64,000 nt of DNA, taken from Pagrus major. Taxonomy: Eukaryota > Chordata > Actinopteri > Spariformes > Sparidae. The DNA lies in the NCBI RefSeq assembly GCF_040436345.1, contig NC_133221.1, positions 21,586,665-21,650,664 of the forward strand, read 5' to 3'. Within the stretch, counting starts at the first letter, position 1. Each line of letters opens with the position of its first letter. Both the position numbers and the translations under genes were made by a program. Positions 11,898 to 57,588 of the stretch are shown here, piece after piece. Under the pieces are notes generated by a model that made no database searches, was not told where the DNA came from, and worked only from the letters and a program-made list of their open reading frames with translations.

Positions 11898-14800
11898 ATG
11901 TCAGAAGGGGACAGTGTTGGAGAGTCAATCCATGGCAAACCATCGGTAGTCGCTGCCTTTTTCACACGGATTGGACAGGTAACATGGCATATCCCTCAGA
12001 CCATGTCATTATCACTCATCATAATTAGGGATATGTTTGGTGCCTAAACACTGGGTTGTATACTCATGACCATTAAGCAAATGTAAAATGGGTATCAATT
12101 AAACTGGTGGTGATTTAAAGTCACTTCTATAGACTGCATTAGTTATGCAAGTGGCAATTTATTTTCAGAATTACTTCTGTACTGAAATGTTACAAGGCCA
12201 GTGCTGCTGTACCTGTTGTCACAGTGTTCATCTTCAAAGTAGCAGTAATGCTTACACTATAGTGGAAGTCATGTATCACATTATGGGTGATGGTTTCTAG
12301 TAACTTTAGCGTAATCAAAGAAAACAGGTGAATTACAGTGTTATTTTGGAGTTTAATACGTCCTTTGCATGGACTATTAGCAGCACAGTGCTCCTGTGAA
12401 GCACTTTTCCTGATTTCAGTTTCTAGTTTATATTTTATCTCATTTGTACTTAAAATGATCACATCAGTAGCAGCATTCCTCAAGCTTTGTGCTTAGCAGT
12501 GGTATCAGTGCTGAAAAAGTGTTATCAGGACATCCTGACTGAAAGTGGGAATATGGCCTTCAATTTGTCCCATGGTATTGGCCAGTCAGGCAGAGAGAGA
12601 AATGGATTCAAGGATTAAGGGGAACTTATATTAAAACATATTCCTCCACAGTAATTAGAGCAATGATAAGCATGGGATGCTTAGGTAACGTCCATTATCA
12701 TTGTATCTCCACAAAGTGAAAGTAACATTTTTTCAGAGACTTCCTTTTATTTTTTGTAACAGATCTATCAGTCATGGCTAGACAAGTCAACGCCGTTCTA
12801 TGCAGTGCGGTGGGCAGCCACTCTACTACTCACTGCTGTCTACATGATCAGAGTGTACATACTACAGGTAAGGTTTTTATTTATTTATTTATTCATTCAT
12901 TCATTCATTTACAATGTTTTTCTTTGCTCAGGGAAGTTAGAAAATGCCAATAGTTGTAACAAAAGCATTTAATTACAAAATGATTCACTTGCACTGTATT
13001 GTCCAGTTTTTTGAGACTGTCAGAGTGAGAGGTGTTCATTCACCTGTACTTATAAATACTAATAATTTTGTTTAACTGGAATGCATTATATTTAAGGCTG
13101 ATTGTTTTTGGTTTTAGCTGATTTTCACCAAAGGTGAAAGATTGGCTTAGAGGACGCTCAAAGAGGACAGTGACTGTACATCTTTTTTTGTCGCAACTCA
13201 TCCGTCAAATGTGTGATATTTGTTTTTCTACTTGCCAGTTCTCTTTCCATGAAAAACTTCTTGCTCATGTATACATCATTTTTTACTAACAAATGTGCAC
13301 TTTTAGCCTGTTAATTTGGTTCTGTTCCTTATGCTGCTTTTCAGGGTTGGTATATAGTAACATATGCTTTGGGAATCTACCATCTCAACCTGTTCATTGC
13401 TTTTCTATCGCCAAAAGTGGATCCTTCACTGCTTGACGAAGGCAAGTTGACTCAAATCAGATAATGTTTTTTGTCACGTTGTGTACTCAATTACATTTTG
13501 TATTTTGACTTGTCGCAGTTTTATTCAGTACCAATTCCATCAAAGGTCAAAGTATAATCAGATAATCTAAGAATGCTTTCCCATACACTACATGGCTAAG
13601 CATTAACTTGTATTTTTTTTTTTTTGAAAGTTTTCTAATTGTATATATTTATTCATCCCAAAAGGACAGAATACTATGGTGCATTCACTGTATATATTGA
13701 GGATAAAGCTAAAATTCAAAATTTTCAGTTTTCTAAAGTGTTTAGTTGGAAATGTGTAACTTGACATGGAAATAAATAAAATGTCATAGTGCCAGCCACA
13801 CTGTTGAGTAAGTGATCTCTTCGAAGTAAAATGCTAACGCATTACAGAAGCAACTGCTTAGTTCCAAAAACTGGAAATAGTTTATTCACCTCTGTGCTTC
13901 AATAAGCCTTTCCTTTCAACATGGATTGTTATAAGAGATTGTGAAAACAAATAATTGTGAACTGTTACTAGTCATGTGCCAAGTACTGTAGTTTGCTCTT
14001 CTCAAGAAAAAATACTTTTGATTGTGATAGTGTTTTTTTTTATCTCTTGGCTTGCACATTGTTGGTCTTAATGCTGAGTTGTGATTGAAGATCATTTTAA
14101 ATAACTTCTACATCACCCTTTAATTTATCTGTAATGCAGATGAGGGCCCATCCCTTCCTACCAAGCAGAACGAGGAGTTCCGCCCTTTCATCAGGAGGTT
14201 GCCTGAATTCAAATTCTGGTGAGTCAAGCTTTTGGTCAGGGCATCTATCTCTGTCATCTATAGAGTGACTGCAAATTAGATTCTTTTGATTGACCTGTGT
14301 GGCCAAAATTTAAGTCATGTAGAGGTGTTGTAAAATGAGGTAGTATTTTAGTATATAATATGATCTTGCATCCTCATCTCAATTTACTTTCTAGTCAATC
14401 CCTATCATCCATATATTGTCCATATAGCGTTACTTCCCTCTAAAGATTTAATTTAAGTTAATTAATCTTTCATCCTGGCTGTTAACATTTTTCAGCAGTT
14501 TTGACCTTGTTAAGTACATAAAAATATGTCAAGTCAAGTAAGTCAAATCTGTATTTTCTCTTTCCTGCATCTTCCATTATGGATTTATTTGATATTGTGA
14601 ACTCATGAAACCCTACTTCACATTACTCTTCCCACATTGATCGTAAAAAGGAAATTTCCATACACACCATACACACAATGCCTTATTCAGTAAATGACCC
14701 AATGTCACAAATGTGGCCAGACTGTTTTTTTTTTTGTTTTTTTTTAAAAACTTTTTTCAAGTTTAAATGTCAGCAACATTGAACATCGAACACTGTTCGT

Positions 14801-15622
14801 GACATGGGGCCTTTCATTCTCCCTTTTTCCTTTCCTAGAGCCATTTACGTTCTAGCATTTAGACACTCAAGTACATCATATCTGGAGTCCATCTTTGAAG
14901 AAAAATGTTCATTTCCAATTGCAATTTTGCTGTCATATACTCCAATATATAGACTTGTTTCAGGCTGTGGCCACACAGTTTTAACTGAGGTTATGTCCCT
15001 TTTCTTGGCAGGCATTCAGCAACAAAAGGCATCGTCATCGCCATGATTTGCACATTTTTTGATGCCTTCAATGTGCCAGTGTTCTGGCCTATACTTGTAA
15101 TGTACTTCATCATGCTCTTCTGCATCACCATGAAGAGGCAGATCAAGGTAAAGTATACATTGACTGACATCAACACCAGACTGTAGAAGGCAACAAAAAA
15201 ATTTGTAGAAAGTAGAAATTACTCTGACAAAGCTTTTAGCAAAAAACTAAGATCTTCACACTCACAAAGGTCATATGTTTTGAAGGACTGCATTATATGG
15301 TACAGATCTTGCTGCTGTCCACCATTTTATGCAGTTAATTTAATTTTGAATATGCTAATACCTCATGTTAAGTGCTAAATCATTCCTTTTTTATTTATAT
15401 TACTGATAAAGCTGGCAGTCATTGTGCTACTCCATCACTCACCACATATTTTGTTAAAAAATGGGGTGAAAAGAGTGAACCCTAGAAATATCTGTTGCTA
15501 ATTCTCCTCTTTTTCTTCTCCACCCTTTTTAGCACATGGTCAAGTACAGATACCTACCCTTCACACATGGGAAGAGGACATACAAAGGCAAGGAAGAAAC
15601 AGGGAAAACATTTGCTAGTTAA
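11898..15622 (+). CDS. rer1: RER1, Golgi receptor retrieving and retaining membrane proteins for the ER
   Basis: Coding exons: 11898-11978, 12763-12867, 13345-13441, 14140-14218, 15012-15147 and 15533-15622 (TAA). They total 588 nt and give 195 aa, matching the 195-196 aa typical of vertebrate RER1. The start is the ATG one base into the exon at 11897 ([14 protein letters not shown]). Conserved segments are [67 protein letters not shown], and the basic tail ending in GKTFAS. Hydrophobic stretches at about residues 42-60, 63-83, 120-135 and 140-160 fit the four-helix fold. RER1 cycles between cis-Golgi and ER in COPI vesicles, returning unassembled subunits. The intron after 13441 uses a GC donor (GCAAGT); with it the codon GAT is restored across the junction and the reading frame holds. 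Decayed copies of exons 5 and 6 recur downstream in the receptor array. Confidence 0.96.
12874..12910. repeat. (TTTA)n/(TTCA)n microsatellite
   Basis: A run of TTTA repeats changes into TTCA repeats just inside rer1 intron 3, directly after the splice donor. Confidence 0.9.
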
Positions 15623-17733: not shown

Positions 17734-17789
17734 CATCTCTAGATTGATGATCAGAAATATTTTTTTTTTTAAAAAAACACTCTTCATTA

Positions 17790-19118: not shown

Positions 19119-22100
19119 ATGAAGCACTGTCTAGCTTTTCTGTGTCTTTTGGGACCTTTTCTACATGTTTTGTCTCAATGCACTGTCCCATCCTCAGAGT
19201 TTCAGCTGGAAGGAGATTTTTTGATCGGTGGACTTTTTGGAATTCATCATGTCGATGGACCTGATAATCGTGACAGACCAGAATTCACTGACTGCTCCCG
19301 GTGAGTTTTATAACATCTCTGAGCAGATACTATCTGAAACTAATGAAGTGCATCTAGTATAATAGATAATATTATTATACGAGTAGTGCGTCAGATTGTC
19401 AGGTCAATGGAACTTTTCCTTCAAAACCTATTTTAATATTTGCTCCATTTAAAAAGGTATAAGACATTAAGTCTGCATTATTGATCTTAGGCCTTTTTTA
19501 GTGTCTCTAAAGCCTTCACAGAGGCATTAATGAAACTAATTATCTCTCACTTTCCTTTGTCTGTCCACAGTAAACCCTTCATTCTGTCAAGTTATCAGAG
19601 GTTTCAGGTGATGCGATTCTCTGTAGAGGAAATCAATAACTCTACCAACCTACTGCCAAATGTATCTCTTGGCTATGAAATTTTTGACCACTGCTCAGAT
19701 ACACAGAGTTTTCCAGGCATTTTAAACCTCATCTCAGTCAATGGCATGATCCAACCTTGGCGTGAACCAAACAAGAATCTCTCCAAAGTTTCCAAAGTGA
19801 TTGCAGTGGTCGGCACTTACGTAAGCACTGAAACACGGACAATAGCCCCTCTTTTTATGATGAATCTCATTCCTATGGTAAATTTGCCAACTACTGTTTT
19901 TAACAACTTATATCAGATATATCAAGTGCTTTCATACCAAGCTTTTTTTGAGAATTTATTGTCACTATGAAGTAATGAGAATGTCTCTATTACTCTTTTA
20001 ACAGGTCAGTTATGGAGCTTCTAGTTCAATCTTTTCAACAAAACAGAATTTCCCCTCTTTCCTGCGAACAGTGCATCCCAATAAAGATATCATAGAAGTG
20101 ATTATTAGGATTCTGCAGCACTTCAACTGGCGCTGGGTATCTTTCCTCAACATCGATGATGATTATGGCAATGATGCACGGGAATTGTTCATAAAGATGA
20201 TTAAGGACACTGAGATCTGCCTGGCGTACACCAAAATCCTCAGTCATGATACAGATTACTCCCAAATATTCAAACAGATAGAGGCACAGAGGATAAGTAT
20301 CATTATAGTTGTTGCTGCTGAATGGACTGCTAATGCTCTCCTTGACTCAGCAATACAACTGAATATCACAGACAAGGTCTTGATAGCAAGCGATGGATGG
20401 TCCTCGAACAAGGAGTTCCCCAAGAAGACAGGAATCAAAAATATCGGAACTGTACTCGGGGTGTCTCAGCCAGTAGTGAAATTGCCTGGTTTCAGTGATT
20501 TTGTCCATGCTTCCAAAAGCCAGAATCATTGTGAGAATTCAGAACAGATGTTTTGTAATCAGGTTTGCAACTGCAGTAACCTGACTGCAAAAGATGTCAT
20601 TCTTGCAGACCCAACTTTCTCTTTTCCTGTCTATTCTGCTGTATATGCCATCGCTCATGCCTTACACAATGTCTTGCGATGTGGATCGGATGGATGTAAT
20701 GGGAATATTACAGTTTACCCACATATGGTGAGTATACAAATAATTTGAGAACTCATTTAAGTTATTCTCACTGATTCTTGGCCAGTTTTTTTTCCATGCC
20801 ATTTGATGTGTGTCCAATGACAACACAATACAAGTGTAGGTTTTGTTATCATATATAGATCTGCACAAATTGATGGCTTTCAGTAAGATGCTTTGAATAA
20901 ATAAGCTTTTCAAAGGGTTTTGTAAGACAGAGATCAATCTCATTAGAGCTCTTCGTTGGTTAAAACATGATGGAATATTTTTTAAAACCTATTTAATCGA
21001 CACCACATATGTTTATCGTGAACACATGCAAGTAATCTGTACTTTGTGTGCCCTCATCAGGTTCTAGCAGAGCTGAAGAAGACAAACCTTACACTTCTAA
21101 ACCAGAGTATTGAGTTTGATGAGAATGGTGACCCCAAGTACGGATCCTATTCTATACTTTTCTGGAACCAAACTGGTGATACGGAGGAAGTCGGCTTGTA
21201 TCATTTTAACCCATCGTTCCATTTCTTCATCAACAACAGCAAAATTCAGTGGCACACCAAGGACAAAGTGAGTTTTTAGAGTAAAGAGTTTACATGGTAT
21301 ATGTTGATATAAAAATACTTTGTTTTGGTTTCCCTCTTCTGCAGTGATGTGCTTTGTAACTAAACATGGTGTCATTAACTGCTACTTCTCTATCATTTGC
21401 ATACAACCCTTGTGATATAATCTTGTCTTGGACAGGTGCCTACATCACTGTGTTCCCAGGAATGTTGTGTAGGTCATAAAAAAAAGTATAATGGAATCCA
21501 CAAATGCTGCTTTGATTGTGAAAAATGCCCCAAAGGAACTTATGTCAACAGCTCAGGTAAATTATTATACATGAGAGGAAGAGGGTTATGGCCAAGAGAG
21601 TGTAACAGTCATTTCATGTTGACAGCTACACAGATCGAATCACTGTGGCATCAAGCTAATAACATCAGTCACTTCCAGGTAGACAACTGGCAGTTGATTT
21701 GTATTGCAAATATATGTGAAATCAGCAACATTGTTTTTTCTGGTGTCATTAACTAACATTGAAAGATACTTTGTTAAACAAGATGACCTATGTGACTCAC
21801 TCTGACTCAAACTGATCTCTCTTTACCAACAGAGGATTTTTTAAGAGTTGACCTTAACTTTATTGACAATCTGTCCTTTTTTGTGTACAACAGCAAATCC
21901 CTACGAATGTTTTGAATGTAAGGAGACAGAATGGTCTGAAGAAGCAAGCACATCATGCAATCTGCGGGTGGTGGAGTACATCCCATTCACAGACAGTGGA
22001 GCTATAGTGATCATGGTCGGGGCCTGGGTCTTGGTGGGTCTCACAGCAGCCATGTCTGTTCTCTTTGCCATCAACTACAACACACCTGTTGTCAGATCTG

Positions 22101-22822
22101 CTGGGGGACCAATGTGCTTCTTAATTTTAGGCTGCCTCAGTCTGAGTAGTATTAGTGTGTTCTTTCAGTTCGACAAACCAACAACTTCCTTTTGCATCTT
22201 AAGATTCTTGCCATTTGTTTTGTTCTACACTGTTTGTTTGGCATGTTTTGTTGTACGCTCGTTTCAAATTGTTTGCATTTTCAAAATAGCTGCCAAGTGC
22301 CACAAGCTCAGCAGCTGGTGGATGAAATATCATGTACAATGGCTGGTCATCACTGTGGCATTTGGTGCTCAGGCACTCTTACTTCTTATTGGCTATTCTT
22401 ATGACCCACCCAAGCCCTACAATGAATCAGGTTGGTACCCAGACAAAATAATACTTACTTGTGATCATAATTTTAAAGCAACCTCTGGTTCTTCGGTTTT
22501 ATTTGTATTTTTGTGCTCTCTTTGCTTCATTTTCTCCTACATGGGAAAAGACCTCCCAAAAAATTACAATGAGGCCAAAGCAATAACCTTCTGCCTGCTC
22601 CTGCTGATCCTCACATGGATCATCTTTGCCACTGTGCGTATACTTTACCGTGGCAAGTACAACCAAACTCTTAACGCTCTGGCAGTACTCTCCAGTCTCT
22701 ACTCCTTTCTGTTCTTTTATTTCCTCCCAAAATGTTACATCATCATTTTTCAATCGTACAAAAACACAAAGCAGTACTTCCAAGGTCTCCTTCATGATTA
22801 CAACAAAACAACCAGCCAGTAG
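19119..22822 (+). CDS. Type 1 taste receptor (T1R1/T1R2-like), array copy 1
   Basis: Exons: 19119-19300, 19571-19877, 20005-20727, 21061-21267, 21436-21556 and 21894-22822 (TAG), 2469 nt, 822 aa, frame intact. The signal peptide is in residues 1-20. The Venus-flytrap ligand domain spans residues about 25-475 (exons 1-4; EFQLEGDFLIGGLF, VEEINNSTNLLPNVSLGYE). The cysteine-rich domain comes from exon 5 and the start of exon 6, and the seven-helix domain covers about 550-800 (TPVVRSAGGPMCFLIL, KDLPKNYNEAKAITF, FLPKCYIIIF). The six-exon layout with a 121-nt exon 5 and the C-terminal FQG..HDYNK tail fit T1R rather than V2R/OlfC receptors. T1Rs are plasma-membrane class C GPCRs of taste cells that pair with T1R3 and sense amino acids or sugars. 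Oddities: an extra Cys in the cysteine-rich domain (ECCVGH; other copies have Pro) and Leu for Trp in KVLIASDGW. Assignment to T1R1 or T1R2 was not settled by eye. Confidence 0.9.
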
Positions 22823-24850: not shown

Positions 24851-27489
24851 AGAATAGTTTGTTACAAAAGTCCACCTGTAAAGACGGACTAGTGAGGAGA
24901 TGAGTTTTCCTGTTCAGCCTCTGTAGTCTCAATTAGCTGTCCTTTTTCAGACACATAAGTGTTTTATAATTAAACTGTGGGACATTTAATGATGTATTAT
25001 ATGTCAACAAAACATAGAACAAAATGTGTAAATATCTTAAGCCTGTGTTAACCACAGACCTTATTTCAGGCTTTTAACTGAAAACCCATTCACCCATAGA
25101 CGTTGACATGAGGGAACCAGAAGTGCAAAAATGCTAACTGATTCATTACTACACCACTCTGTAAGGCTAATATTGAAGGCCATTCCAAATATACTGTATG
25201 TATTTTTTTAAATAAATGTTCCAGCCAGTGAAATACAATATTCATGACATCCCCACCATCCTCAGCTATACTTTGTGTTTAGTTCTAATAATAGTTTTGG
25301 ATTCTGATTCTGATATGGTAAACATTACACCAATTTTAACATACTAATTGATTAAGTTAGAGTTTAATAAACCTCCAGTATTTCATCATCCACACTCTGA
25401 TAAAGTCTCTTCACTCAGTTTTTTCAAAATCTACCAGTTTACAAATGTACTTACACACGATAAAGAACTGTTGCGATGAGATGTATCTTTGTACTTGCAT
25501 AACTAAATCAGATAGGAAGTAGTTGACATATGAATTAAGAGTATACTACAGTTAAATTTAATGTACACTATGCTTTAAACATACACTTCAAAATCTTGTG
25601 TAATTTTACAGCCTCAGGACATTCAGTGATATTCCACATATGCTTTATTTTGTTATGCCCTGCACTAATTTATATATTGTGTACATCAGTTATATAACTG
25701 TAAGAGTTATTCAATAAAAACATTGAATTGAACTTGTCTGTTTTCTTTTCTGTTCAGCTGTTTTTTGAGGTATCTATAGCAATTTTTACTGTCACCACAT
25801 GAAGGCACCACTTAACTGTGACACTGTACAGGCCACACTGCAGGCATGCTTTGAATAAACTAGTGTATTGAGATTGATTTTTCTATTGAGATCAAAATCA
25901 GGGTGCAAGATGCTTTTGTGCAGGTGTTGTGCAGGTCTACACACAATATAGTTCAAATATAAATTAAACAGTATCCTGCAATATAGATAAAGATTGCTTG
26001 GCCCTACTGCATATTCCCATTTTTCAAGTGTGTTTCTGTACCTTAAAGGACACATAAAGTCTCCATTTTTAAAAAAATAGAATGTGATTATTTGAGTGAA
26101 ATTCTCCCTGTGATTTTCTGTAAGTTTATTGTTGCACTGTTTTTAATATTTGGCTTTCATCTAAATTCACAAAAGCGCATATACTGTACACCTTTAAAGT
26201 TGATTGCCACAGTAAGAATGAAACCTCTTCCCCTATTGGTCCTCCTCATTTGACCAATTTCTCCACTTACTTATAAACCCACTCAATAATGGCATAATAT
26301 GTAATGTTGCAGTGTGGGGCATGTATATATGTATTTGACCAGGTCTGCTGATTTTGCATACTAATTACATACGGAGCCACACTAGGTCTTATTCTCGTGG
26401 CCCTTAACCACATGTCTGTAGTCTGCATGGATGTCAAGTGTCTCAATGCACTGGTTACAGGTTGTGTACCTGAGAGATACAGGTATTACATCACCAAATC
26501 TGAATTTTCCCAATCATTATTGATACACACGTTGACACCAGATTCTGTATAGCTCCACACTGTTTGTAAAAATGTCATTAGGTAAATTTAATCCTTAACT
26601 AATGTGTCTGTTGCTTTTTGGATGAGTTATGTCTCAGTATCTTGTGTTTTAATCAGGAAGACACTGACCTTGTTTCCACCCAGATGTAAATGTTCATGTC
26701 CTCTTTGTTTTGTCATCGCTCCTTGGGACCACTTTTACCACACAAAATACTGATTATTAGTAGGAGAAAAAAAGCAGAGATTAAATATATTATTACTCAA
26801 TAGCATCAATTAGATCTTATTACAAGTACATGATGTTACTTTTTGGCATTGATGGCCAATTTCTTCCAGTAATACAGGGGTAAAACATGTAACCTATTGT
26901 AACCTTATTATATATGAGAGCACTACGCCTAGAAAGTCAAAACCTCATCTTAACACACAGGGAAAACTGTCACAGTACTGGCTACTCTATTGGTTAGAAC
27001 GTGATCTTGTGGAAGTGAAATGCCCACGTTTCACAGCAATGACTGGTTTGAAAAACTTTTACTGTGACAGCTAACACCAGCACTTTTAGACATGTCTCTG
27101 TGTTCTACCATTGACAGTTTGTGTGAAAGCCTACCTGACTGTCAGGTGTTTATGCAAACTCTGTCTGTTTGTGTGCTAAAGCAGGAAGAGAGGAAATGGG
27201 TTTTGCATTGGCCAACATATAGATAGGTTTGTCATTTGCCTACAATCTTAGAAGATAATCTTTGGTTCCTCTTTCCATGTGGTTCATCTCTGCATTGTCA
27301 AAAACATTTTTGTTTTTTCAAACTGAAAATATAAAACAACCATTTTGTTTTTAAAAATGTGAGATAACTGTGATAGTATTGAACAGATCATTTATCCCTT
27401 ACTTTAAGACTTAATTCCACCTGAGAAAATATCTTAGAATATATATTTATGTTGTTAGTTAACAACAACAGGTTAGTCAAATGTATTAT

Positions 27490-28400: not shown

Positions 28401-28669
28401 TAGCAAGTGAATTTATTTGCTTTTCCTCAATTTTTTACACTATTTTGTGAATAATTAGTGATAATTGGCTTAATCTACATTTTTGTTTTTTATGGCATAC
28501 TTGTGTTCCGACACTCACACTAATGAGTGACTAGACTGTGGTTTGAAACCAGTCAGCATTTTCCTTTTGTGATGTTTTACTTTGATGTTCCCAACTAATA
28601 AAGGCTTTTCAAGCATATCCTCGGCTGTACTTGAGAAGCTTTGTCTACAATTTGTCTATTCATCACAGG

Positions 28670-28873
28670 GACTATGCAGCAGCATTTTAAATGATTTTTG
28701 CATGCTGATTTGTGTATTCTTTTTAAGCCATTTATAGCAATCTGCATCTATACCCTCCCAATTTCATGGAAATGATCACAAAGCCTCAGCCTTCACCAGT
28801 CTCTCATGACATTTAAAAGACAAAGGCAATCCCATCAGAGCAAACACCTGAGTGGTAAAAAATAACAACAACA
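28670..28873 (+). promoter_or_regulatory. Conserved upstream block of receptor 2
   Basis: Begins with CAGGGACTATGCAGCAG; TTTTGCAT is at 28696-28703, 178 bp before the ATG. CTGATTTGTGTATTC, CATGGAAATGATCAC and CTCTCATGAC follow in the order seen in the other copies. Confidence 0.55.
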
Positions 28874-38198: not shown

Positions 38199-38399
38199 GT
38201 AAACTTTACACTTTGACCGATATACTGTTATCGCAGTGTTACACAAACATTACAGCCAAAGGTACCCTGTGGAGTTTTGAACTACTACTAGCACTATGGA
38301 GTAATGTTTTTAAAAGCGCAATTATTTCTGCACCTTGCAGAAATGTATATTTCATACAATTATGCTGGGTGGTTCACACTATACTACTAGTTGACAGTT

Positions 38400-39701: not shown

Positions 39702-42700
39702 ATGAAAAAATGTCTTGCTTCTCTGTGTCTCCTGGGATCTCTTCTACATGCCTTGGCTCAATGCACTGTCCCGACCTCAGAGTTCCACCTGAAAGGAGAT
39801 TATTTAATAGGTGGACTTTTTGATATTCATCATGTCAGAGACAGTGTTTATCTTTACAGACCAGAAGCCATCGACTGCTCCAGGTGAGTTTAAAATAAAT
39901 CTGAATAAATCCCCTCTTAAAATGAAACTAATGACAAGTTTAGTGTATTGGATTAGACCCTTTTAAAAACACTGAGGAGTTTCACCTCAAATGCGGGGTC
40001 AATAGCTGTTGCTTAGCAGCACATTGAACCCTAAACCAATCCAGTTAATTGCTACATTATCAAAGCTGCTGTATAACATTAAATCTGACTCCTGTTCTTG
40101 CTCCATAAAACTGACTTTTCTAACGTCCATATCTGTGTAGAGGTCTCAAGACTAATAATATTAACTGAAATGTAATCCTTCTCTCCTGCTGTGTTTTCTC
40201 TGTTCATAGTCAACTCTTCATTCTGTCAAGTTATCGGAGATTTCAGTTGATGAGATTCACTGTAGAGGAAATCAATAACTCTACCAACCTACTGCCAAAT
40301 GTATCTCTCGGCTATGAAATATTTGACCACTGCTCAGATACACAGATTTTCCCTGGAATTTTGAAACTCTTCTCATCCAGTGGTATGATTCAACCTTGGA
40401 GTGAACCAAACAAGAACCTGTCCAAAGTGTCCAAAGTAACAGCAGTGGTCGGCCCTTTTTCAAGCACGAACACCCTGACTGTAGCCCCACTGTTCATGGC
40501 TGATCTCATTCCTGTGGTAAGTCTGCCAGCTACAGAGTTTTTCCCAGTTATAAAATCAGTCAGTTAACATAAGTAGTACAATTGTAAAACTTAAATTGCA
40601 ACAGTTTTTAATTTCAATTTCTATTATCCTTTTATCAGGTCAGTTATGGAGCTGCCTCATCTGCCTTTACAGAGAAAGCAAAATTTCCTTCTTTCCTACG
40701 AACTGTGCATTCCAATAAAGGCATCATAGGAGTGATTGTTGAGATCATTCTGCACTTCAAATGGCGCTGGGTTGCTTTCCTTAACAGTGACAATGATTTT
40801 GGCAAAGATGGCCTGGAATTGTTCATAAAGAGGATTGAGAACACTAACATCTGCCTAGCGTTCACCAAAGGCATCAACGATAATACAAATACTTCCCAAA
40901 TGTTCAAACAAATACAGGCACAGAAAATCGGTGTCATTATTGTTTTTACTACAAAATTGACTGCTGAAGCTCTCATTGAGTCAGCAGTACAAGTGAATAT
41001 CACAGACAAGGTGTGGATAGCAGGGGACACATGGTCCTTAAACAAAAGGCTCCCCAAGGTGAAAGGAATAAAAAATATTGGAACTGTAATTGGTGTGTCT
41101 CAGCCAGTAGTGACAATACCTGGTTTCAATGATTTCATCTATGCTTCCAAAAGCCAGACTCAATGTGAAAATAAAGAACAAAATAGGTTTTGTAATCAGT
41201 TTTGCAACTGCAGTAGCCTGAGTGCAGAAGATATCCTTGCTGTGGACCCATCTTTCTCTTTCCCTGTTTATTCTGCTGTATATGCCATCGCTCATGCCTT
41301 ACACAATACATTGCAATGCGGATCTGGCAGATGTAATGGAAATATTACAGTGCACCCATATATGGTAAGTATACAAATAATTCAATAATAATAATAATTA
41401 GATCAAATTCACTATCTCAATTTTTCATGTTTATGATTGTTACAGCTTTAACCCTTTAGACAAGCCTGTAATAACTCAAAACACTGGTCTAGCGTGGTTT
41501 GTCATCACATAAATATCATATTTAACATATTATAGAAAACAATTTCTGGTACAAAGTCTACAATGTTCAAAAAAAAAAAAAATAGGATAAAAGCTGAAAT
41601 GGAGGCATCACACAACAACATTTCCCTCCTCAGTAATATTTTAACATCTATTTGATCAGTGTGAAATCAAAAGTAGTAGTGGTCTGAACTTTGTGTACCC
41701 ACACCAGGTTCTAGCAGAGCTGAAGAAGTCAAACTTCACAATTTTAAACCGGAGTATCCAATTTGATGAGAATGGTGAGCCCAAGTTTGGATCCTTTTCT
41801 ATTGTTTTCTGGAACCACAGTGGTGATGCAGTGGAGATTGGCTTTTATCATTTTTACCCATGGCGCAAATTTTTCATCAACAGCACCAAAATTCAGTGGT
41901 ACACAAAGGGAGAAGTAAGTTGTCTTTTCATAAATATGTGTGGTTTAATGCAGTATATTAACACTTAAAAGAGTATGTTGATTAAAAATGCCTTCTTTTG
42001 TTTCTTCTTTTGTTTGTATGCGTATATAAAGATACACTGCTAAAAATAAACCAATGTCTGACAGAATGTTCACATTTTACAAATCTTGTTGCAAAATTTA
42101 AAAGCAGTATATGCTGTTTAATTTCCCTCTCATTTGCCTTCCATCCTTGAAAGTATTGTTCTTGCTTCACTTACATTTTATTTTTTGCTAAATAATTGTG
42201 GTGTACAGGTGCCTACTTCAGTATGTTCAAAGGAATGTCCTATAGGACATGCAAAAAAGCAAAATGGGATCCATGAATGCTGCTTCAATTGTATTATCTG
42301 TCCAAATGGAACTTACATCAACAGCTCAGGTAAATTATTATACATGAGAGAAAGAAAATGAGTAAAATATATCCTGTGCTTCTCTCTGCTTTTTTTCAGA
42401 TTTTAGATTGTTTGAAGCATTTTTTCATGTTTGCAAGGGTTTAACAGTTACTTTGTGTTGATTGGACACAGCTACATAGGCTTCAACTTCCACTCAAAAA
42501 TGAATTAGATTGGCTACTAATATACCACAGAGCATCTTTCAGACATTCCGTTCCTTTCTTGTGTAAAACAAATGTTCCCTAAATCTAATGGGGACATCTG
42601 TTGTAAAAGATGAAAAGTGCAACAATGCTTCATCAACTGTATGATCTCTTTTCAAAAGTTGACTTTATTGACAATCTGTCCTTTTTTGTGTAAAACAGCG

Positions 42701-43627
42701 GATCCCTACAAATGCCTCAGATGTAAGGAGACAGAATGGTCTGAAGAAGCAAGCACATCATGCAATCTGCGTTTGGTGGAGTACATCCCATTCACAGACA
42801 GTGGAGCTATAGTGATCATGGTCGGGGCCTGGGTCTTGGTGGGTCTCACAGCAGCCATGTCCGTTCTCTTTGCTGTCAACTACAACACACCTATTGTCAG
42901 ATCTGCTGGGGGACCAATGTGCTTCTTAATTTTAGGTTGCCTCAGTCTGTGTAGTATTAGTGTGTTCTTTCACTTCGACAAGCCAACAACTTCCTTTTGT
43001 ATCTTAAGGTTCTTGCCTTTTTTTTTGTTCTACACTGTTTGTTTGGCATGTTTTGTTGTGCGCTCATTTCAAATTGTTTGCATTTTCAAAATAGCCGCCA
43101 AGTTCCCCAAGCTCCACAGCTGGTGGATGAAATATCATGGACAATGGCTGGTCATCACTGTGGCATTTCTTACTCAGGCACTCTTACTTGTTATCGGCTA
43201 CTCTTGTGCCCCACCCAAGCCCTACAATGAAACAGTTTGGTACCCAGACAAAATAATACTTAGTTGTGACATTAATCTCACAGCAACCTCTAGTCCTGTG
43301 GTTTTACTTTTGTCCTTGTGCTGCTTTTGTTTCATTTTCTCCTACATGGGAAAAGATCTCCCAAAAAATTACAATGAGGCCAAAGCAATAACCTTCTGCC
43401 TGCTCCTGCTGATCCTCACGTGGATAATGTTTGCCACTGAGTACATGCTTTACCGTGGCAAGCACATCCAAACTCTTAACGCTCTGGCAGTACTTTCCAG
43501 TCTCTACTCCTTTCTGTTGTGGTATTTCCTCCCAAAATGTTACATCATCATTCTCCAGCCCCACAAAAACACTCAACAGTACTTCCAAGGTCTCATTCAG
43601 AATTATACCAAAACAATTAGCCAGTAG
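39702..43627 (+). CDS. Type 1 taste receptor (T1R1/T1R2-like), array copy 3
   Basis: Exons: 39702-39883, 40210-40516, 40639-41364, 41708-41914, 42209-42329 and 42699-43627 (TAG), 2472 nt, 823 aa, uninterrupted. The ATG at 39702 is chosen over one 15 nt upstream because it aligns with the starts of the other copies and gives MKKCLASLCLLGSLLHALAQ, a clean signal peptide. The flytrap domain differs most from the others in lobe 2 (FTKGINDNTNTSQMFKQIQ, AQKIGVIIVFTTKLTAEAL), which may mean a different ligand preference. The 7TM exon is almost the same as copies 4 and 5, but has Glu in ATEYMLYRGKH near the end of helix 6. Members of this family couple through helices and the conserved intracellular loop KDLPKNYNEAK to taste-cell G proteins. 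The upstream spacer holds rer1 exon 5 and 6 relics. Confidence 0.9.
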
Positions 43628-44225: not shown

Positions 44226-44783
44226 TTTGAGTATTGAGGATAGAATGTGTAATAGTTTCCTTTCAAATAATTTAGCCAATTATTTAGCCAAATTAGTGAG
44301 TATATTACAGATACAAAAACGTAAATAAATACATGAATAAATAAAACAAAACATACTTCATACAGTCCAGGTAACACAGATCTCACCACATGATGGCAAC
44401 ACTTAACTGTGGTGCTGTCTACACGAGAGACCACTGCTGGACTTTGAATGTACTTTTATGGGCTAAGTTCCCTCAAATGTCAATACTGATTTATGTATTA
44501 CTCCTGGTGTTATAGTTTTAAGCTTAGAATAAGATCTTAAAATAAGAGGGAAGTATAAAGTGATGATTAACTTCTTCTCTGAGGTTGATGTCTAACTGCA
44601 TATTTTTGTGACATTATTGCCTCTGTTTCCATGTGGAGTTAAAATTCATTTTGGAAAAATGTTGCATAAGAAGTGTGTCTGTGACAAATAAAGATTGATT
44701 TGATTTACTATTTTGTCTTAATGCCGATTCATGGTAAAGGGTTATAGCTGATTCACCTTTCATATTCACTGTGTCTCACGTCA

Positions 44784-44858
44784 TGGAGGCCTATCCTATC
44801 CTACCAAGTAGAACGACAAGTTCGGCCATTCCACCAATGCCTGAATTCAACTTCTGGC
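44784..44858 (+). pseudogene. rer1 exon 5 relic, first of two before receptor 4
   Basis: GGCCTATCCTATCCTACCAA, AGAACGACAAGTTC, TGCCTGAATTCAACTTCTGG match rer1 exon 5 in order. The donor has changed from GGTGAG to GGCAAG. The preceding 70 bases (CTTAATGC-GA-TCATGG) match the end of rer1 intron 4 near 14065-14085. Confidence 0.85.
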
Positions 44859-44989
44859 AAGAGTGCTGGCCATTTATCATTTTTTATCATATGCCTGGCC
44901 TGAAGTACATACTGTATGAGATGCACATATTATCATGGCATAGTCTTTTGTTGTTGTTTTTTTTATGAATACCAGTTTATGTGTGGGAA

Positions 44990-45110: not shown

Positions 45111-45548
45111 AGCACTATATCTAAAGACTAAAACTTAATCATGATATCCAAGGAAATAACATTTCACAGTACGGCCAAACAGTTAATTATCAAATCAAAT
45201 TTGATTTGTTTAAATCAAAGTGCAAACATATCGCAGCAATGACTGCTTTGTACCAACCACTATTGTCAAGTGCTTTACCCAACTTATTGTCCATTAATCT
45301 TTCTTAATAACATAAACAATTAGTTAAGATTGTGAGCATTGTTTGACTAATTTCAGTTTTACAGTAATTGGCTCTTTTCTAGAACATAAAACATTAACTC
45401 ACGTACTTTATATGAGATGTTGTTTTGTGGTCTTAATGTGGTGATTTAGTGAGAATACTTGGTCTTAATGCTGAGTAATGGTTAAAAGTCATAGCTGAAT
45501 CGCTGTTTGTATTAACTTCACTGTGTCTCAGTCTGCCTCACTTCATGC

Positions 45549-45624
45549 AGGCCTATCCCTTGCAACCAAACGGAACGACGAGTTCCGTCCTTACACCAGC
45601 AGGTTGCCCAAATTCAAATTCTGC
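45549..45624 (+). pseudogene. rer1 exon 5 relic, second before receptor 4
   Basis: GGCCTATCCCTTGCAACCAA, GAACGACGAGTTCCG and AGGTTGCCCAAATTCAAATT match rer1 exon 5. It is preceded by TGGTCTTAATGCTGAGTAATGG, which matches rer1 intron 4 at 14064-14083. The donor is lost. Downstream sequence (AAGAGGAGGTGGTCTTT) also occurs after the 56.4 kb relic. Confidence 0.87.
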
Positions 45625-45999
45625 TCCTATTTCAAATGATCTGTGTGGTCCAATGTTCATTCATGCAGGGATCATTTGTAAGAGGAGGTGGTCTTTTACC
45701 ATAAACCAAAGATACTGGGTTGAATTGATTTAATTTGTGTAAATTTGCTTGTGACTTTGTCCTGTGTAACCTACAAGCTCATCTCATGTGATTGCTGATA
45801 GCGTCCTTAATATGGTATAACTTTCTTCTAAATAGCCAATCAATTATGAGACATTCCCAGCAATAGCAAGAGTTGCTGGTTAATACCTTTTAGATTTTTC
45901 AGTTATTTAAACAATTACATATCAAGAAAAACATAGTTTGCTGAACATCACGCAATGTGCCAACACAAATGCAAAACTGCATCCTCACATTTACAAACC

Positions 46000-48727: not shown

Positions 48728-51700
48728 ATGGGGCATTTTCTTGCTTCTCTGTGTCTCCTGGGATCTTTTCTTCATGCCTTTGCTCAATGCACTGTCCCAG
48801 CCTCAGAGTTTCGGCTGGAAGGAGATTATTTGATAGGTGGACTGTTTGATATTCATCATGCCACTGGCCCTGTTCATAATGACAGACCAGAAGCCATCGA
48901 CTGTTCCAGGTGAGTGGATATCTGCTCAAGTAAAAAAAAAAACTACTGAACAACGGCTGGTGTAACAGATTATTTGTACATTCAAAATATTGCCTCAAAC
49001 ATGAGACCAGTAGCTATGGCTAAGTAGCACTCATGTTAAGTCTGATCTTCATCCTTATTCCATGAAATTTGTTTTGTAACATCCAAATCTGTACGGAGGT
49101 CCCAATGAGGATTTTATTTCAACTTTCACTAACAACAGTGATACTTTAAAGTAATTCTTAATCCTTTTCTCCTGTTGTTCTATCTCTGTCCTCAGTCAGC
49201 CCTTCCTTCTCCCAAATTACCGAAGGTTTCAGTTGATGAGATTCTCTGTGGAGGAAATCAATAATTCTGCCAACCTACTGCCAAATATCTCTCTGGGCTA
49301 TGACATATTTGACCACTGCTCAGATTCGCAGAGTTTTCCAGGCATTTTAAACCTCATCTTAGTCAATGGTATGACTCAACCTTGGGGTGAACCACACAAA
49401 AATCTGTCCAAAGTGTCCAAAGTCATAGCAGTGGTTGGTCCTTTTTCAAGCACTCAGGCCCTGACTGCGGCCCCATTGTTCATGGTAGATTTCATTCCCA
49501 TGGTAAATTGGATTTTATTTTTTATGTTTTAACATTTATTTCAGACAGACCAAATGATTAATAATAGACTTATGTAATTATGTTATTAACAATTGTTTCA
49601 TCTAAGATAAGTTTTAATTTTTTTTTTTTCTTTTAACAGGTCAGTTATGGAGCTTCTAGTTCAGTCTTTTCAACAAAAGAGCAATTTCCATCTTTCCTGC
49701 GAACAGTGCATCCCAATAAAGAGGTCATAGAAGCGATTGTTAGCATTGTACAGCACTTCAATTGGCGCTGGGTTGCATTCCTTCACATTGAAAATGATTT
49801 TGGCATTGATGGACGGGAATTGTTCATAAAGAGGATAAAGGACACTGAGATCTGCCTGGCGTACACCAAAAGCCTCAGTCATGATACAGATTACTCTCAA
49901 ATATTCAAACAGATAGAGGCACAGAGGATACGTATCATTATAGTTTTTGCTCCAAAAACGACTGCTGAAGCTCTCATTGAGTCAGCAATACAACTGAATA
50001 TCACAAACAAGGTGTGGATTGCAGATGATGGATGGTCCCTAAACAAGAGGCTCCCCAAGACAAAAGGCATCAAGAATATTGGAACTGTACTCGGGGTGTC
50101 TCAGCCAGTTGTGACAATACCCAGATTCAATGATTTTATCAATATCACAAAAAGCCAGACTCATTGTGAAAATGCAGAGCAAAGTATGTTTTGTAATCAG
50201 GTTTGCAACTGCAGTAGCCTGAGTACTGAAGCCATCCTTGCTGCAGACCCATCTTTCTCTTTTCCTGTTTATTCTGCTGTTTATGCCATCGCTCATGCCT
50301 TACACAATGTCTTGCAATGTGGATCTGGCAGATGTAATGGGAATATAAAAGTGTACCCACACATGGTAAGTTCACAGAAGATCTGACAGTCTAAATTTGC
50401 TTGTTTATGTTTCTGAGAGTTAACTTTAATAAAAGGCTATCTTAGTTATAACATAAAAATGTAAACATGAACTTTAAAGCAGATTTTTACCTTCAATTAA
50501 ATAAAAGCTGACAATAGAGCCACACAACCAACTGATAACTCCTGACAAATTGAATTAAAGCATTTTTTTTTTTTTTTCAATATCTCATACTGCTGCTTGG
50601 CATGCGTTGTTATTATCAAGGTGCCACTCTGTAATTTAACTTATTGCGAGCTATCGGCGTAGTGTGTAATTGTTTTGTCCAATTTCTATCTATCTGTAAA
50701 TAGAGGCATCTCCAGTCTCTTGATCCAGCAACTTTAAGCCTGTAAAAGATTTTAGCTACTCTGCTTACCTTTCAAACATTGCATTGCCATCAAAATCTCA
50801 GAAAAAAATGTGGCAATAGCTAAAGTGTATAATTAGATAAACCACTTCCTAATGCCTCTGAAGGGTGAAAACACAGAAGTTACTCCCTACACAATAATGT
50901 TTTTAAAAACCTATTTATTCAAATCTCATATGTTCATTGTAAACACATGCAAGTAATTGTCATCTGACCTTTGTTTGCCCAAATCAGGTTCTAGCCAAGT
51001 TGAGGAAGTCCAATTTTACACTTTTAAACCAGCGTATTCAGTTTGATGAGAATGGTGACCCCAAGTTTGGAGCCTATTCTATTGTTTTCTGGAACCACAG
51101 TGGTGATGCAGAGGAGATCGGCTTTTATCATTTTCACCCATGGGTCAATTTTTTCATCAACAGCACCAAAGTTCGGTGGTACACAAAGGGACAAGTAAGT
51201 TGTTTTATTTCCTAATTATAGTATTGCAGTATGTAGTATATGAACAGTTTATACAGTATCTTTCCATGAAAGAATGGGTTTGGTTTTGGTTGAGCAACGT
51301 TTAGAATCAGCTCTGACAGGCTTAACATAGATCAACCGATGGTGGTTGTTAATAGTGTCATTTGCAGTGATGTCTGAATATGAAGTGTTTGTAAGCATTT
51401 TTCCATTTCACAAAACCTCTTAATAAATTAAAACACCACTTTCCTCATTTTTTTAGTACACAGAGGTATTCTTCTTCTTTTTGCTTCACCTACATTGAAT
51501 TTGTTCCTGAATAATTGTCTTGTACAGGTGCCTTCTTCACAGTGTTCCCAAGAATGTCCTGTAGGACATGCAAAAATGCAAAATGGGATCCACAAATGCT
51601 GCTTCAATTGTGAAATCTGTCCAAATGGAACTTATATCAACAGCACAGGTAAATTATTATACATGAGAGGAAGAAAATGAGAATATTCTATATGCAAGAT

Positions 51701-52821
51701 GACTTCCATGGCTGAGAAGAATGAAATCAAATTCAAATTCCATCCTGATGACTGAACATGCCAATAACTCAAGAGCTTTTCAACTCTTCAAAGCTCAATT
51801 TAGGAGAACGTATAATGTAAAAGATAAAAGCGCAGAATGGCTTCCCTATTTTAACATTAACTTTATCAATAAATTGTCTGTCTTATAAACAGCAGATCCC
51901 TTCATATGCATCCACTGTAAGGAGACAGAATGGTCTGCAGAAGGAAGCACATCATGCAATCTGCGGGTGGTGGAGTACATCCCATTCACAGACAGTGGAG
52001 CTATAGTGATCATGGTCGGGACCTGGGTCTTGGTGGGCCTCACAGCAGCCATGTCCGTCCTCTTTGCCATCAACTACAACACACCTATTGTCAGATCTGC
52101 TGGGGGACCAATGTGCTTCTTAATTTTAGGCTGCCTCAGTCTGTGTAGTATTAGTGTGTTCTTTCAGTTTGACAAGCCAACAACTTCCTTTTGTATCTTA
52201 AGGTTCTTGCCATTTTTTTTGTTCTACACTGTTTGTTTGGCATGTTTTGTTGTACGCTCGTTTCAAATTGTTTGCATTTTCAAAATAGCTGCCAAGTTCC
52301 CCAAGCTCCACAGCTGGTGGATGAAATATCATGGACAATGGCTGGTCATCACTGTGGCATTTGGTACTCAGGCACTCTTACTTGTTATCTGCTATTCTTG
52401 TGCTCCACCCGAGCCCTACAATGAAACAGCTTGGTACCGAGACAAAATAATACTTAGTTGTGACTTTCATCTTAAAACATTTTCTGGTTCCATGATTTTA
52501 CTTTCATCTTTGTGCTGTCTGTGCTTCATTTTCTCCTACATGGGAAAAGATCTCCCAAAAAATTACAATGAGGCCAAAGCAATAACCTTCTGCCTGCTCC
52601 TGCTGATCCTCACCTGGATCATCTTTGCCACTGTATACATGCTTTACCGTGGCAAGCACATCCAAACTCTTAACGCTCTGGCAGTACTCTCCAGTCTCTA
52701 CTCCTTTCTGTTGTGGTATTTTCTCCCAAAATGTTACATCATCATATTTCAACCCCACAAAAACACAAAGCAGTACTTCCAAGGTATCATTCAGGATTAT
52801 ACCAAAACAATTAGCCAGTAG
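48728..52821 (+). CDS. Type 1 taste receptor (T1R1/T1R2-like), array copy 4
   Basis: Exons: 48728-48909, 49196-49502, 49640-50365, 50988-51194, 51528-51648 and 51893-52821 (TAG), 2472 nt, 823 aa, intact. It starts MGHFLASLCLLGSFLHAFAQ, a signal peptide with Gly-His in place of the Lys seen in the others. Exon 2 is more diverged than in other copies (QPFLLPNYRRFQ, NNSANLLPNISLGYDIF), and lobe 2 reads VWIADDGWSLNKRLP. The cysteine-rich domain is complete, with KETEWSAEGSTSC like copy 5, while copies 1-3 have SEEAST. Extracellular loop 2 (SCDFHLKTFSGS) also groups it with copy 5. Its 3' flank is alignable with that of copy 5 for about 600 bp, making 4 and 5 the youngest pair. A poly-T run precedes the exon 3 acceptor. 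Expected role as for the other copies. Confidence 0.9.
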
Positions 52822-54445: not shown

Positions 54446-56435
54446 ACCTAAAGCTCATCTGCCTTAAAGTGTAAATAGAGGCGTCTTCAGGTGCTCATGT
54501 AGGGGCATGATATCTCATGCTATAAGTGATGTACCAAGCCAATTACCTGAAGGGAACTTCCCTAATGCCTAATTGCTTCCACATGGAGTTGAGATCAGTA
54601 AAATAAAGTACGTCAGAAGTGTGTAATTTTAGATTGCGATTGATAGTGAAAAGTCACCTCTCTGGCAGTCAAGTAATTAGAGCTAGTGCAGGAGGAGGAG
54701 CGTTACCAACTACGGTAGATATAGACTTCTTTGGTACATCTGTGTGCACAGCACTGGGTCAGCAATCAAACTCCTGGCAAGGGGTTCTGTACTAGTCATT
54801 GATTAGCCATAACAAATACCATGTTCAAGCATACAGGTTGGTGATTCGCAAGTGTACTTGGTAACCAGATCAACTATGTGCAAACTGAACTGGAAAACCT
54901 AAATGTATCATGAGGGTAATGACAATTTCTGGGTGAGCTATTGTCCACAAGGTCTTTAACTCCCACCACTGCAGAATTTCTCCCACATCCTGGGGGTGGT
55001 TGGGGAAATAGAATCTGAGTGGGCCATGTTTAAAGCCTCCATTGTGGTGGCCACCATTTGGAGCTGCATTCAGAAGGCTGTTTTTATTGAAACAGACTTT
55101 ATAGAGTACTTGAGTAGTATAAAGTACTTCACAACTGAGGATCAAAATAAAAAGTCATAACAGGGAAGTAGTGGACTTCAGCATAAATGAAAAGAATGAT
55201 CAAATGTATAACTCATGACCAGTTATTTAAAAAAAACACTTATAAATGCCCCTTTGATTGACATTTCACAGAATCTAGTATAGATTGCAAGAAAAATAAC
55301 TTGATCAGGGAAATTGACAGAAAAAACAGTAAAAAGGTTTACTGTGTCTGTTATTTTATATTTAAGTTCATCCTCATCATATCGCCCACAGTTGGCTCTG
55401 GAAAATTATCTAAGTCTTGCCTGATGTGTGCGTGAGGTGCACACCGTCTCACGGCACTCACAGTACCAGTGCATATGCATGGTTTTAGGGGGTATGCATC
55501 ATTTATACCTTTGGCCCCTGGACTACCTTGCTCAGAATGCTGCCACCTCTCTGGCAGAACTGACCCTGGATAAGTGGTGGTAAATGGATAGATGCATGGA
55601 GGGAAAACACATGTATACATATAATATACAAAAATACAGATAACTGAATTGTTGACTCTAAAAAGTGGAGTAATACCATTAAGCAGCTGAAGGACTATGA
55701 GGAGTTGTAATGGTGGGGAAGGGTCTCATTAATATAAATGGGTTTCAAGAAACATTTATTTGTATCAAATATAACTTGTTGTTACATGGGTTTTCTAATT
55801 CACCAGTATCATCATGTGGCTATCACATTACAAGAGCATCTCTGTAGGTATTTTCTAAGTCTGAAGAAGAGCATTGCTCGAAAAGTTACTTGAGGGTTTG
55901 CTAATGACCTCTACTTAAGGGAGCAACAGTGTGCTGACCTTTTTTTATGTTTTCATCGTCTATTGATCCAGCGCCGGCCTTAAACAGTATGTGGATGTGC
56001 GCAACCACTATGCATATATGCATAGAAAAAGCATTTCATATAATAATTTAGATGTAACCATAACATGCAAGAAAATTAAATTTCACAGTAGGGCCACAAT
56101 GTTGATTAACCAGTGATTTACCTCTTGATATTAAAGTGCAAATATATGATAGCAATGACTGCTCTGCACCAAACACTATTGTCAGATGCTTGATCCACCT
56201 TATTGTCCATTAATCTAAAAAACAAACAATTTGTATAGATTATGAACATTGTTAGATTAACGTCAGTTTAATAGTAATTGGGTCATTTTTAGAAATTAAA
56301 ACATAAACTTCTATACTTTTTATGAGACAATGTTTTGGGTATTAATGTGGTGACTGAGTGTCTTAATGCTGAGTCATGGTTAAATGTCATATATAATTCT
56401 TCTTTATTATTAACTTTACTATGTCAGACTTTAGA

Positions 56436-56511
56436 GAGGCCTATCCCTTGCAACGGAGCAGAATGACGAGTTCCGCCCTTACACCAGCAGGTTGCCTGAA
56501 TTCAAATTCTG
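56436..56511 (+). pseudogene. rer1 exon 5 relic before receptor 5
   Basis: The best-preserved copy: GGCCTATCCCTTGCAAC, GCAGAATGACGAGTTCCGCC, AGGTTGCCTGAATTCAAATT, then TCTG and a GTGAGA donor. The preceding CTTAATGCTGAGTCATGGTT matches rer1 intron 4 before exon 5 (14068-14085). The acceptor is degraded and no exon 6 or 7 copy was found after it. Confidence 0.9.
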
Positions 56512-57409
56512 GTGAGAGCCCTGGCCATTTATCACTTTCATCGTTTGAGTGATGGCAAATTTTCCTATTTCAAATTACCTGTGTGGTCTAACATTCAATC
56601 CTGCAGCGATCATTTGTAAGAGGAGGTGGTCTTTAAGCCTAAACCAGAGATGCTGGGTTGAATTAATTTTATTTGTGTAAATTTGCTTGTGACGCTATGT
56701 AGTGTGATGTTACAAGGTCATTTGTACTTGCGTAGAACATTCTTATAGTATAACTTTCTTCTAAAGGGGCATTACATTGCGAAACATGCCCTGCAACAAG
56801 AGTTATTGCTTAACAGCCTTTTGTGTTTTAGTTATTATAAAACAAAGACAAAACAGTTTGCTGAACATCAGCCATGCAATGACAGACTTTTGATGGTGAA
56901 AGGGAGACAGTGTGTGGAAAAAAACTTTTTAGTGGATAATCTGTTGGATTTTCAAATGTAATGCCTCAGCACATCCTGGTCCGAATTAAGTAATAGGTAA
57001 TATTTCTAAATATGGACATTGTGGATGCACTTGTTAATTAGACACTCATCTTCACCATGATGTTTGCAGGTTGAAACTGGTTAGCAATGTAAAACATAGA
57101 AATGTTTTACATTTCTAATATTTTACAATTATTATTTTATAATTTTACTCTTTGGTCAAGTGCCTAAAGCCTACTTTTTATTCTAAAATCAATGTCAGTC
57201 CTTGAAATCAGGGAATGGTAAAAAGGAAAGTATGCCACATGTTGTAGCAAAAGGAACATGTAATGCACAATTTTTAAACATAGATATAATTTCTGTTTTC
57301 GTCATCATCATATTTGTCACACAGGTATATATAATCAATAAGGAAGACAGATTTTTTTTTTTTTTAAACTCTGTTACAGTTTGTATACATTACCGGAAAA
57401 CTGTCAAGC

Positions 57410-57588
57410 AGCAGATTAGATGCTTTTGCATGCTGGTTTGTAAATTCTCCTCCAACCATTTATAGTTATTTGCCACCCTTCATGCACTCCCACATGCATG
57501 GAAATGATCACTGGGTCTCATAACCTTCTAAAGGCAGAGGCAAATTGCATTAGAGTTCACATCAGACCTGTAAACAATAACTGAAACA
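57410..57588 (+). promoter_or_regulatory. Conserved upstream block of receptor 5
   Basis: TTTTGCAT at 57424-57431 lies 165 bp before the ATG, followed by GCTGGTTTGTAAATTCTCCT, CCAACCATTTATAG, CATGGAAATGATCAC, CTAAAGGCAGAGGCAAAT and GAGTTCACATCAGA. Confidence 0.55.

Follow-up and report, generated by a model that had tools for sequence, protein, structure and literature searches.

The DNA considered here is a 64,000-nucleotide window of the 786-Mb Pagrus major genome (C7:21586665-21650664), in which an array of tas1r2-type taste-receptor genes follows an intact copy of rer1. The spacers between the receptors hold broken pieces of rer1, and it is very probable that the 3' half of rer1 and the neighbouring receptor were tandemly duplicated as one genomic unit, with unequal crossing-over between units thereafter. 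This reading is carried by the relics, their orientation and order, a similar left edge in three spacers, the lack of a match elsewhere at the sensitivity used, the intact receptors and the mosaic structure of one of them (R5). All of the evidence comes from one genome. We number the receptors R1 to R6 and the spacers S1 (between R1 and R2), S2 (before R3), S3 (before R4), S4 (before R5) and S5 (before R6, beyond the window). Extended coordinates continue the window numbering past 64 kb, and the local searches went out to 123 kb.

There is one intact copy of rer1, at the edge of the array, and the other matches to it are all relics (Table 1). The initial annotation, made from the sequence alone, presumed one non-coding first exon, so that its exons 5 and 6, by which we name the pieces in the relics, correspond to the fourth and fifth of the six coding exons that we model. 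A sensitive BLAST of 11800-19040 against 23000-64000 (E ≤ 0.1, both strands) gave 18 matches, all on the plus strand, with 11 from rer1 and seven from the receptor's own upstream region. Together with self-BLAST and spacer-by-spacer BLAST, it places rer1-derived DNA in each of S1 to S4. In S1 an intron-4 piece (rer1 13778-13872) lies at 26964-27057, an intron-5 piece (14462-14657) at 27404-27596 and a 3' untranslated region (UTR) and flank piece (16107-16804) at 27849-28479, with a weak fourth match of 17643-17833 at 28514-28703 (36.7 bits). S2 has exon 5 and intron 5 (14143-14357) at 37480-37694, more of intron 5 (14378-14557) at 37766-37965 (40.1 bits) and exon 6 (15000-15170) at 38066-38223. 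In S3 the matches are 14062-14223 at 44712-44861, 13750-14220 at 45130-45625 and 14295-14399 at 45641-45744 (35.0 bits), and in S4 there is a single match of 13755-14399 at 56053-56682. The blocks are in rer1 order in every spacer, except for the extra exon-5 relic at 44712-44861 (S3a), which lies ahead of the main S3 relic (S3b). The relics hold intron and 3' sequence besides exons.

With the subject reversed but not complemented there were seven matches with a maximum of 37.5 bits, and the 36.7-bit match in S1 and the 35.0-bit match in S3 are thus not significant alone. Collinear chains scored 454 bits in S1 (three blocks), 244 in S2 (three), 135 in S3 (two) and 167 in S4 (one block). The maxima for chain controls were 55.3 for the reverse complement, 96.8 for the reversed subject (a three-block chain in S1), 30.6 for two other query stretches and 84.9 for shuffles (100 per spacer), and every spacer chain is above the best of these. 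Beyond the window, rer1 14012-14357 is matched in S5 at extended 67622-67974 (66%, E 1e-30), ahead of the intact R6. S5 and R6 lay outside the sequence used for the initial annotation, and are thus an out-of-sample test of the pattern of a relic before each receptor. After R6, two weak rer1 matches were listed up to 123 kb, one of 36.1 bits on the minus strand and one of 32.9 bits on the plus strand.

The initial annotation had claimed rer1 sequence in every spacer and in one orientation, and this is confirmed for all four spacers and for 11 of 11 rer1-derived matches, with alignment to rer1 introns far beyond chance as judged by the controls. Its relic coordinates agree with BLAST to within tens of bases. 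The intron-5 and 3'-flank sequence that it placed at 27.5-28.4 kb is indeed there, in a spacer (S1) with no recognisable exon 5 or 6. The exon 5 and 6 relics that it placed at 37.48-38.2, 44.78, 45.55 and 56.44 kb were also found, with exon 6 only in S2 and the 44.78-kb relic out of order in S3.

With regard to the limits of the duplicated unit, the direct match starts in rer1 at 13750 (S3), 13755 (S4), 13778 (S1), 14143 (S2) and 14012 (S5). We found no relics of rer1 coding exons 1-3 in 23-123 kb (no blastn match at E ≤ 1, and tblastn ≤ 18.5 bits) and no ordered matches to the rer1 intron stretch 13441-13749, and thus place the start of the unit in the intron before the 14140 exon. The same intron has a GC-AG splice pair (13442-13443). 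At the other end, sequence after the receptors is common to the units and can be traced past R6 as far as roughly 75.8 kb, which lies about 1.4 kb after the stop codon, so that a unit ending at the receptor is too short. Of the unit first proposed, running from rer1 intron 4 to the receptor end and tandemly copied, the tandem copying and the intron-4 start are therefore retained, and the right end has to be moved outward, by about 1.4 kb or more from the stop codon. A common non-rer1 sequence directly left of the junction in three spacers was considered and dropped, as the alignments are too diverged to fix the base. The 5' and 3' parts of S1 were also compared for an origin in different units, and are too diverged for either answer.

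The relics look neutrally decayed, and the divergence (K) fits this for S3 and S4: against rer1, K is 0.24-0.26 in exon 5 and 0.49-0.67 in the introns, and lower exon than intron values are expected with the rer1 exons under selection and the relics drifting. In S2 the relic has a 1-base deletion (frameshift) in exon 5, and deletions and stops in exon 6. The S1 3' block has K 0.20 to rer1 (74% identity, or 82% over ungapped columns). Between R1 and R2, K is 0.41-0.55 for introns 1-4 and 0.78 for intron 5; the S1 3' block is at about half of the values for introns 1-4, as expected for a free relic compared with a constrained rer1. Even between the closest units relic K is about 0.15-0.26. Among the six receptors dN/dS is 0.35-0.52 over the whole coding sequence, and in the short exons 4-5 single receptor pairs reach 0.87. 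The six intact frames at these whole-gene ratios, beside relics broken up by stops, internal deletions and a frameshift, bear out the earlier view of rer1 parts decaying and receptors being kept open.

The tree for the whole receptor coding sequence is ((R1,R2),(R3,(R4,(R5,R6)))), with support 98-100, and that for exons 1-3 has R4 with R5-R6 at 67. The relic tree puts S3, S4 and S5 together at 100 with rer1 and S2 outside, the order within S3-S5 being weak (43-52). R5 is a mosaic: from the relic through intron 5, upstream of exon 6, it shares 487 sites with R6 to the exclusion of R4 and 168 with R4 to the exclusion of R6, and for exon 6 with the 3' flank the corresponding counts are 62 and 320 (nominal Fisher p 1e-77). 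The sites depend on one another, and the second pair of counts is inflated by the divergence of the R6 flank. Restricted to exon 6, the comparison gives 20 and 42. Up to about base 310 of this exon R5 is nearest to R6 (K 0.033, against 0.047 to R4), and over the rest it is nearest to R4 (0.043, against 0.089 to R6). This switch from R6-like to R4-like sequence about 310 bases into exon 6 (62313-63592) makes R5 a natural chimeric receptor. Unequal crossing-over between units out of register is the best explanation of the mosaic, with gene conversion as the rival. In R1-R5, codons with an invariant amino acid have fewer silent variable sites in exon 6 (36 in 238) than in exons 1-5 (104 in 279; Fisher p 1e-8), which is in line with recurrent exchange. 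The simple copying of the initial annotation thus gives way to stepwise growth with exchange between units, of which R5 is the mosaic product, and its duplication stands.

The history that we propose would start from the order tp73 - rer1 - one tas1r2 - gpr153, the single-receptor state being our reconstruction. A founding tandem duplication, presumably with a single breakpoint, would have fused sequence lying 3' of tas1r2 to a point at about 13.75 kb, in the intron that precedes the rer1 exon at 14140. The duplicated segment would have taken in rer1 from there on (its 3' half), the receptor together with what lies upstream of it, and about 1.4 kb or more of the sequence that follows the receptor's stop codon. 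The first unit from the 5' side would retain the whole of rer1, and each later unit would open with a headless rer1 fragment that makes no protein and decays. As every unit brings along a complete receptor gene with the sequence upstream of it, each receptor would stay functional, and its expression is a part of the explanation that we infer. With two units present, unequal crossing-over between misaligned units would add and mix copies, R5 probably having arisen by crossover and not by conversion, and the end state would be the six intact receptors now between rer1 and the gpr153-like gene.

Several observations weigh against this history. The edge near 13.75 kb is direct in only three of five relic spacers, as S2 starts at 14143 and S5 at 14012, and S5 extends further left only through its alignment to S1, S3 and S4. 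S1 is without exon 5, and at 60-69% identity the edge can be placed only to within tens of bases. The rer1 intron stretch 13441-13749 has nine weak matches (≤ 31.2 bits) in 23-123 kb, and none of these precedes a relic in the order found in rer1. Immediately left of the junction, alignment is possible for adjacent spacers only, and nothing corresponding follows R6, so that for the right-hand breakpoint there are only bounds. In S2, exon 5 and the intron do not differ in their divergence from rer1 (K 0.35 and 0.37). Receptor exons 4-5 give a tree that joins R3 and R4 (69) and exon 6 one that joins R4 and R5 (68), and trees for the promoter and for introns 2, 4 and 5 also differ from the coding tree, their alignments being poor and not used. 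GENECONV-like run tests on R1-R5 were not significant in nine of ten pairs; the sole nominal result, for R2-R3 in exons 1-2 (p 0.0018), is not interpreted.

As to other origins for the relics, we found no point in support of rer1 retrocopies or of rer1 pieces carried by a dispersed repeat, and consider such an origin almost out of the question. The relics contain intron sequence beside the exons and 3' sequence too, and are thus genomic duplications, as the initial annotation had it, and their orientation and order are constant. Searches of the whole genome listed nothing rer1-like outside rer1 and the array, at the sensitivity used: this applies to five of five places for exon-5 DNA, two of two for 3' DNA and eight of eight matches for the protein, the counts being lower bounds since the exon-5 DNA search missed the known S2 relic. 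The dispersed rer1-bearing repeat, which the initial annotation had named as a threat to its model, was thus not found within that sensitivity. For 55471-55661, left of the S4 junction, the genome-wide matches listed were itself and one of 76% on contig 17, the similar S3 and S5 stretches being missed, and this speaks neither for nor against a duplication driven by repeats. It is very improbable that each unit was an independent rer1-to-receptor duplication with its own breakpoints and no crossing-over between units. The closeness of the S1 3' block to rer1 (K 0.20) speaks for this, and makes it probable that sequence from the rer1 side was copied repeatedly; however the edges at 13750, 13755 and 13778 in three spacers, the common spacer sequence and the mosaic R5 are expected from crossing-over and unlikely otherwise. 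A relic stands before every receptor after R1 (five of five, counting R6), which, with the identity of the S1 3' block to rer1, could be taken to mean that the rer1 fragments persist as regulatory elements for the receptors. We rate this as very improbable, as the rer1 pieces retained differ between relics, the K of the S1 3' block is that of a free relic compared with a constrained rer1, and the conserved promoter element described below adjoins the receptors, outside rer1-derived sequence.

Within the history of duplication and crossing-over, the 3' end shared by R4 and R5 could have come from gene conversion, in either direction, and not from a crossover that created a unit. Conversion has been reported among T1R2 paralogues in miiuy croaker and stickleback (PMC4763219, in the part available), the lower silent variation in exon 6 would suit it, and the three-way counts do not tell whether R4 or R5 was the recipient. 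However the R4-like tract runs past exon 6, all six 3'-flank blocks with more than 100 aligned sites being R4-like (with counts again inflated by the diverged R6 flank), and a crossover accounts for the long tract and the extra unit together. We therefore see conversion as a credible but rather unlikely source of this end.

In the case of the two exon-5 relics at 44712-45957, S3a is nearest to S5 (K 0.23), then to S4 (0.30) and S3b (0.34), with low tree support (43), and by these distances a lost unit is a better fit than a local duplication of recent date. It is possible, as a tentative extension that we put at somewhat below even, that the rer1 fragments are a lasting tally of all units including lost ones, that S3a is what is left of a ghost unit after deletion of its receptor, that the array once had at least seven units, and that such relics could date and order gains and losses of T1R2 in percomorphs.

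Table 1. Coordinates of rer1, its relics, the receptors and the unit boundaries (window or extended numbering)
Feature	Position	Strand	Remarks
rer1, intact, six coding exons, 195 amino acids	11898..15622	+	splice sites, translation, Pfam Rer1 PF03248 E 5.8e-77
rer1 coding exons	11898-11978, 12763-12867, 13345-13441 (GC donor), 14140-14218, 15012-15147, 15533-15622	+	
Left edge of duplicated unit, inside intron before 14140 exon (intron 4 of the initial annotation)	13750..14139	+	
R1, tas1r2-type, six exons, 822 amino acids, intact	19119..22822	+	gene model; family assigned from other copies
rer1 relic before R2 (S1)	26917..28703	+	intron-4, intron-5, 3' UTR/flank and weak pieces
R2, six exons, 820 amino acids, intact	28874..33545	+	
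rer1 relic before R3 (S2)	37480..38223	+	exon 5 with intron 5, intron 5, exon 6
R3, six exons, 823 amino acids, intact	39702..43627	+	
Extra rer1 exon-5 relic (S3a)	44712..44861	+	head of lost unit or local duplication
rer1 relic before R4 (S3b)	45130..45957	+	intron 4, exon 5 (45550), start of intron 5
R4, six exons, 823 amino acids, intact	48728..52821	+	
rer1 relic before R5 (S4)	56053..56876	+	intron 4, exon 5 (56438), intron 5
R5, six exons, 826 amino acids, intact	57589..62931	+	mosaic; R6-like 5' of about base 310 of exon 6, R4-like 3' of it
3' flank of R5, downstream part of unit	62932..63592	+	closest to R4 3' flank (52822-53512), not that of R6
R6, six exons, 825 amino acids, intact, outside window	extended 69104 to 74438		after R5

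The receptors were modelled with six exons in all six genes, the last exon carrying the class C seven-transmembrane domain (PF00003, E 1.5e-55 on R5), and R1-R5 are 75-84% identical to one another in protein sequence. The best structural match of R2 exon 3 is medaka T1R2a (5x2m_A, E 2.8e-93), with human T1R2 next (8e-31), and by this match R2 would be a fish T1R2-type receptor. A genome-wide search with the last-exon protein (E ≤ 1e-40) gave nine matches. Six are in the array (84-100% identity), another (39%) lies some 358 kb past R6, and the other two, at 29-30%, are on contig 2. Neither tblastn (E 0.1) nor blastn of the coding sequence (E 1e-3) found receptor relics outside the exons of the window. 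Just 5' of R1, at 18690-18782, there is a stretch like a promoter end and the start of receptor exon 1, possibly the scar of a lost receptor or a local duplication.

All six receptors have TTTTGCAT 157-190 bases before the start codon, at 18942, 28696, 39538, 48571 and 57424, and for R6 at extended 68914. It is one base off the Oct/POU octamer, occurs nine times on the plus strand of the window with five of these at receptors, and is the longest invariant promoter run across the five window copies, a length reached in 40 of 10000 column shuffles. An Oct motif is described upstream of TAS1R4, and was not seen for other novel TAS1Rs, in the available part of PMC10781636. The near-octamer raises control of the receptors by Pou2f3 as a candidate idea.

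The gene order is p73-like gene, rer1, receptors, gpr153-like gene. Pieces of a p53-family gene occupy the first 8 kb, one of them matching Pfam P53 (E 1e-18) and a second, without a Pfam match, having p73 as its best solved structure (E 5e-22). Open reading frames resembling gpr153 lie at extended 102-107 kb on the minus strand; Pfam gives 7tm_1 only, and the name is our assumption, in line with a published list of neighbours. An Rfam scan of the window gave no matches. Between rer1 and R1, 18160-18618 on the minus strand is open for 139 codons and looks, by eye, like the C-terminal region of a non-LTR (long terminal repeat) retrotransposon. Directly left of the S2 relic is a tandem repeat of 89 bp in 2.6 copies (37107-37347), and S1 has an inverted-orientation match at 87 kb that we take as a repeat.

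Fish T1R2 expansions near rer1 have already been published. In the legend to Fig. 2 of PMC7014666 the neighbours of tas1r2 in medaka and fugu include tp73, rer1 and gpr153, in this order, and tas1r2 would lie between rer1 and gpr153 in both species. P. major has its p73-like gene, rer1, receptors and gpr153-like gene in the corresponding order, but medaka has three and fugu two tas1r2 genes (PMC7014666), whereas P. major has six with rer1 relics between them. Tandem T1R2 expansions include seven copies in miiuy croaker (PMC4763219), eight in stickleback and six in grass carp (PMC7014666), and saT1R2a-f of gilthead seabream (PMC7594079), and a catalogue of vertebrate T1Rs names the teleost T1R2 TAS1R2B (PMC10781636). 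The P. major array is like these in family, from the medaka T1R2a match of one copy, and in having several tandem copies, but the text available from PMC4763219, PMC7014666 and PMC7594079 mentions neither rer1 fragments between receptors nor a mosaic unit, and rer1 does not occur in the main text of PMC7594079. Among the papers listed in literature searches we saw no report of a rer1 footprint in a taste-receptor array, and PMC7014666 was the only one of them to pair rer1 with taste-receptor terms.

Copy number of T1R2 in fish has been tied to diet, and receptor trees are blurred because the receptors exchange sequence. A broken rer1 piece is a linked and apparently unselected marker, and so offers an independent record of the number and kinship of units. 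The array also bears on how chemoreceptor arrays grow: units move whole, upstream sequence included, and exchanges within the final exon make new receptors that pair the ligand-binding domain of one copy with the transmembrane end of another, as in R5.

The closest structural parallel is in the human RCCX modules (STK19-C4-CYP21-TNX), which have the partial edge genes RP2 (of RP1/STK19) and TNXA (exons 32-44 of TNXB), TNXA/TNXB chimeras, and a module number that varies among people (PMC11542561, in the part available). In both cases a segment is repeated in the same orientation and an edge gene is intact once and partial in the further modules. The array differs in that its relics have diverged by the K of about 0.15-0.26 given above even in the closest units, and only one truncated edge gene is known. 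RCCX modules are much more alike than the units of this array. The mechanism is ordinary unequal recombination, and it is the record of it that is unusually clear.

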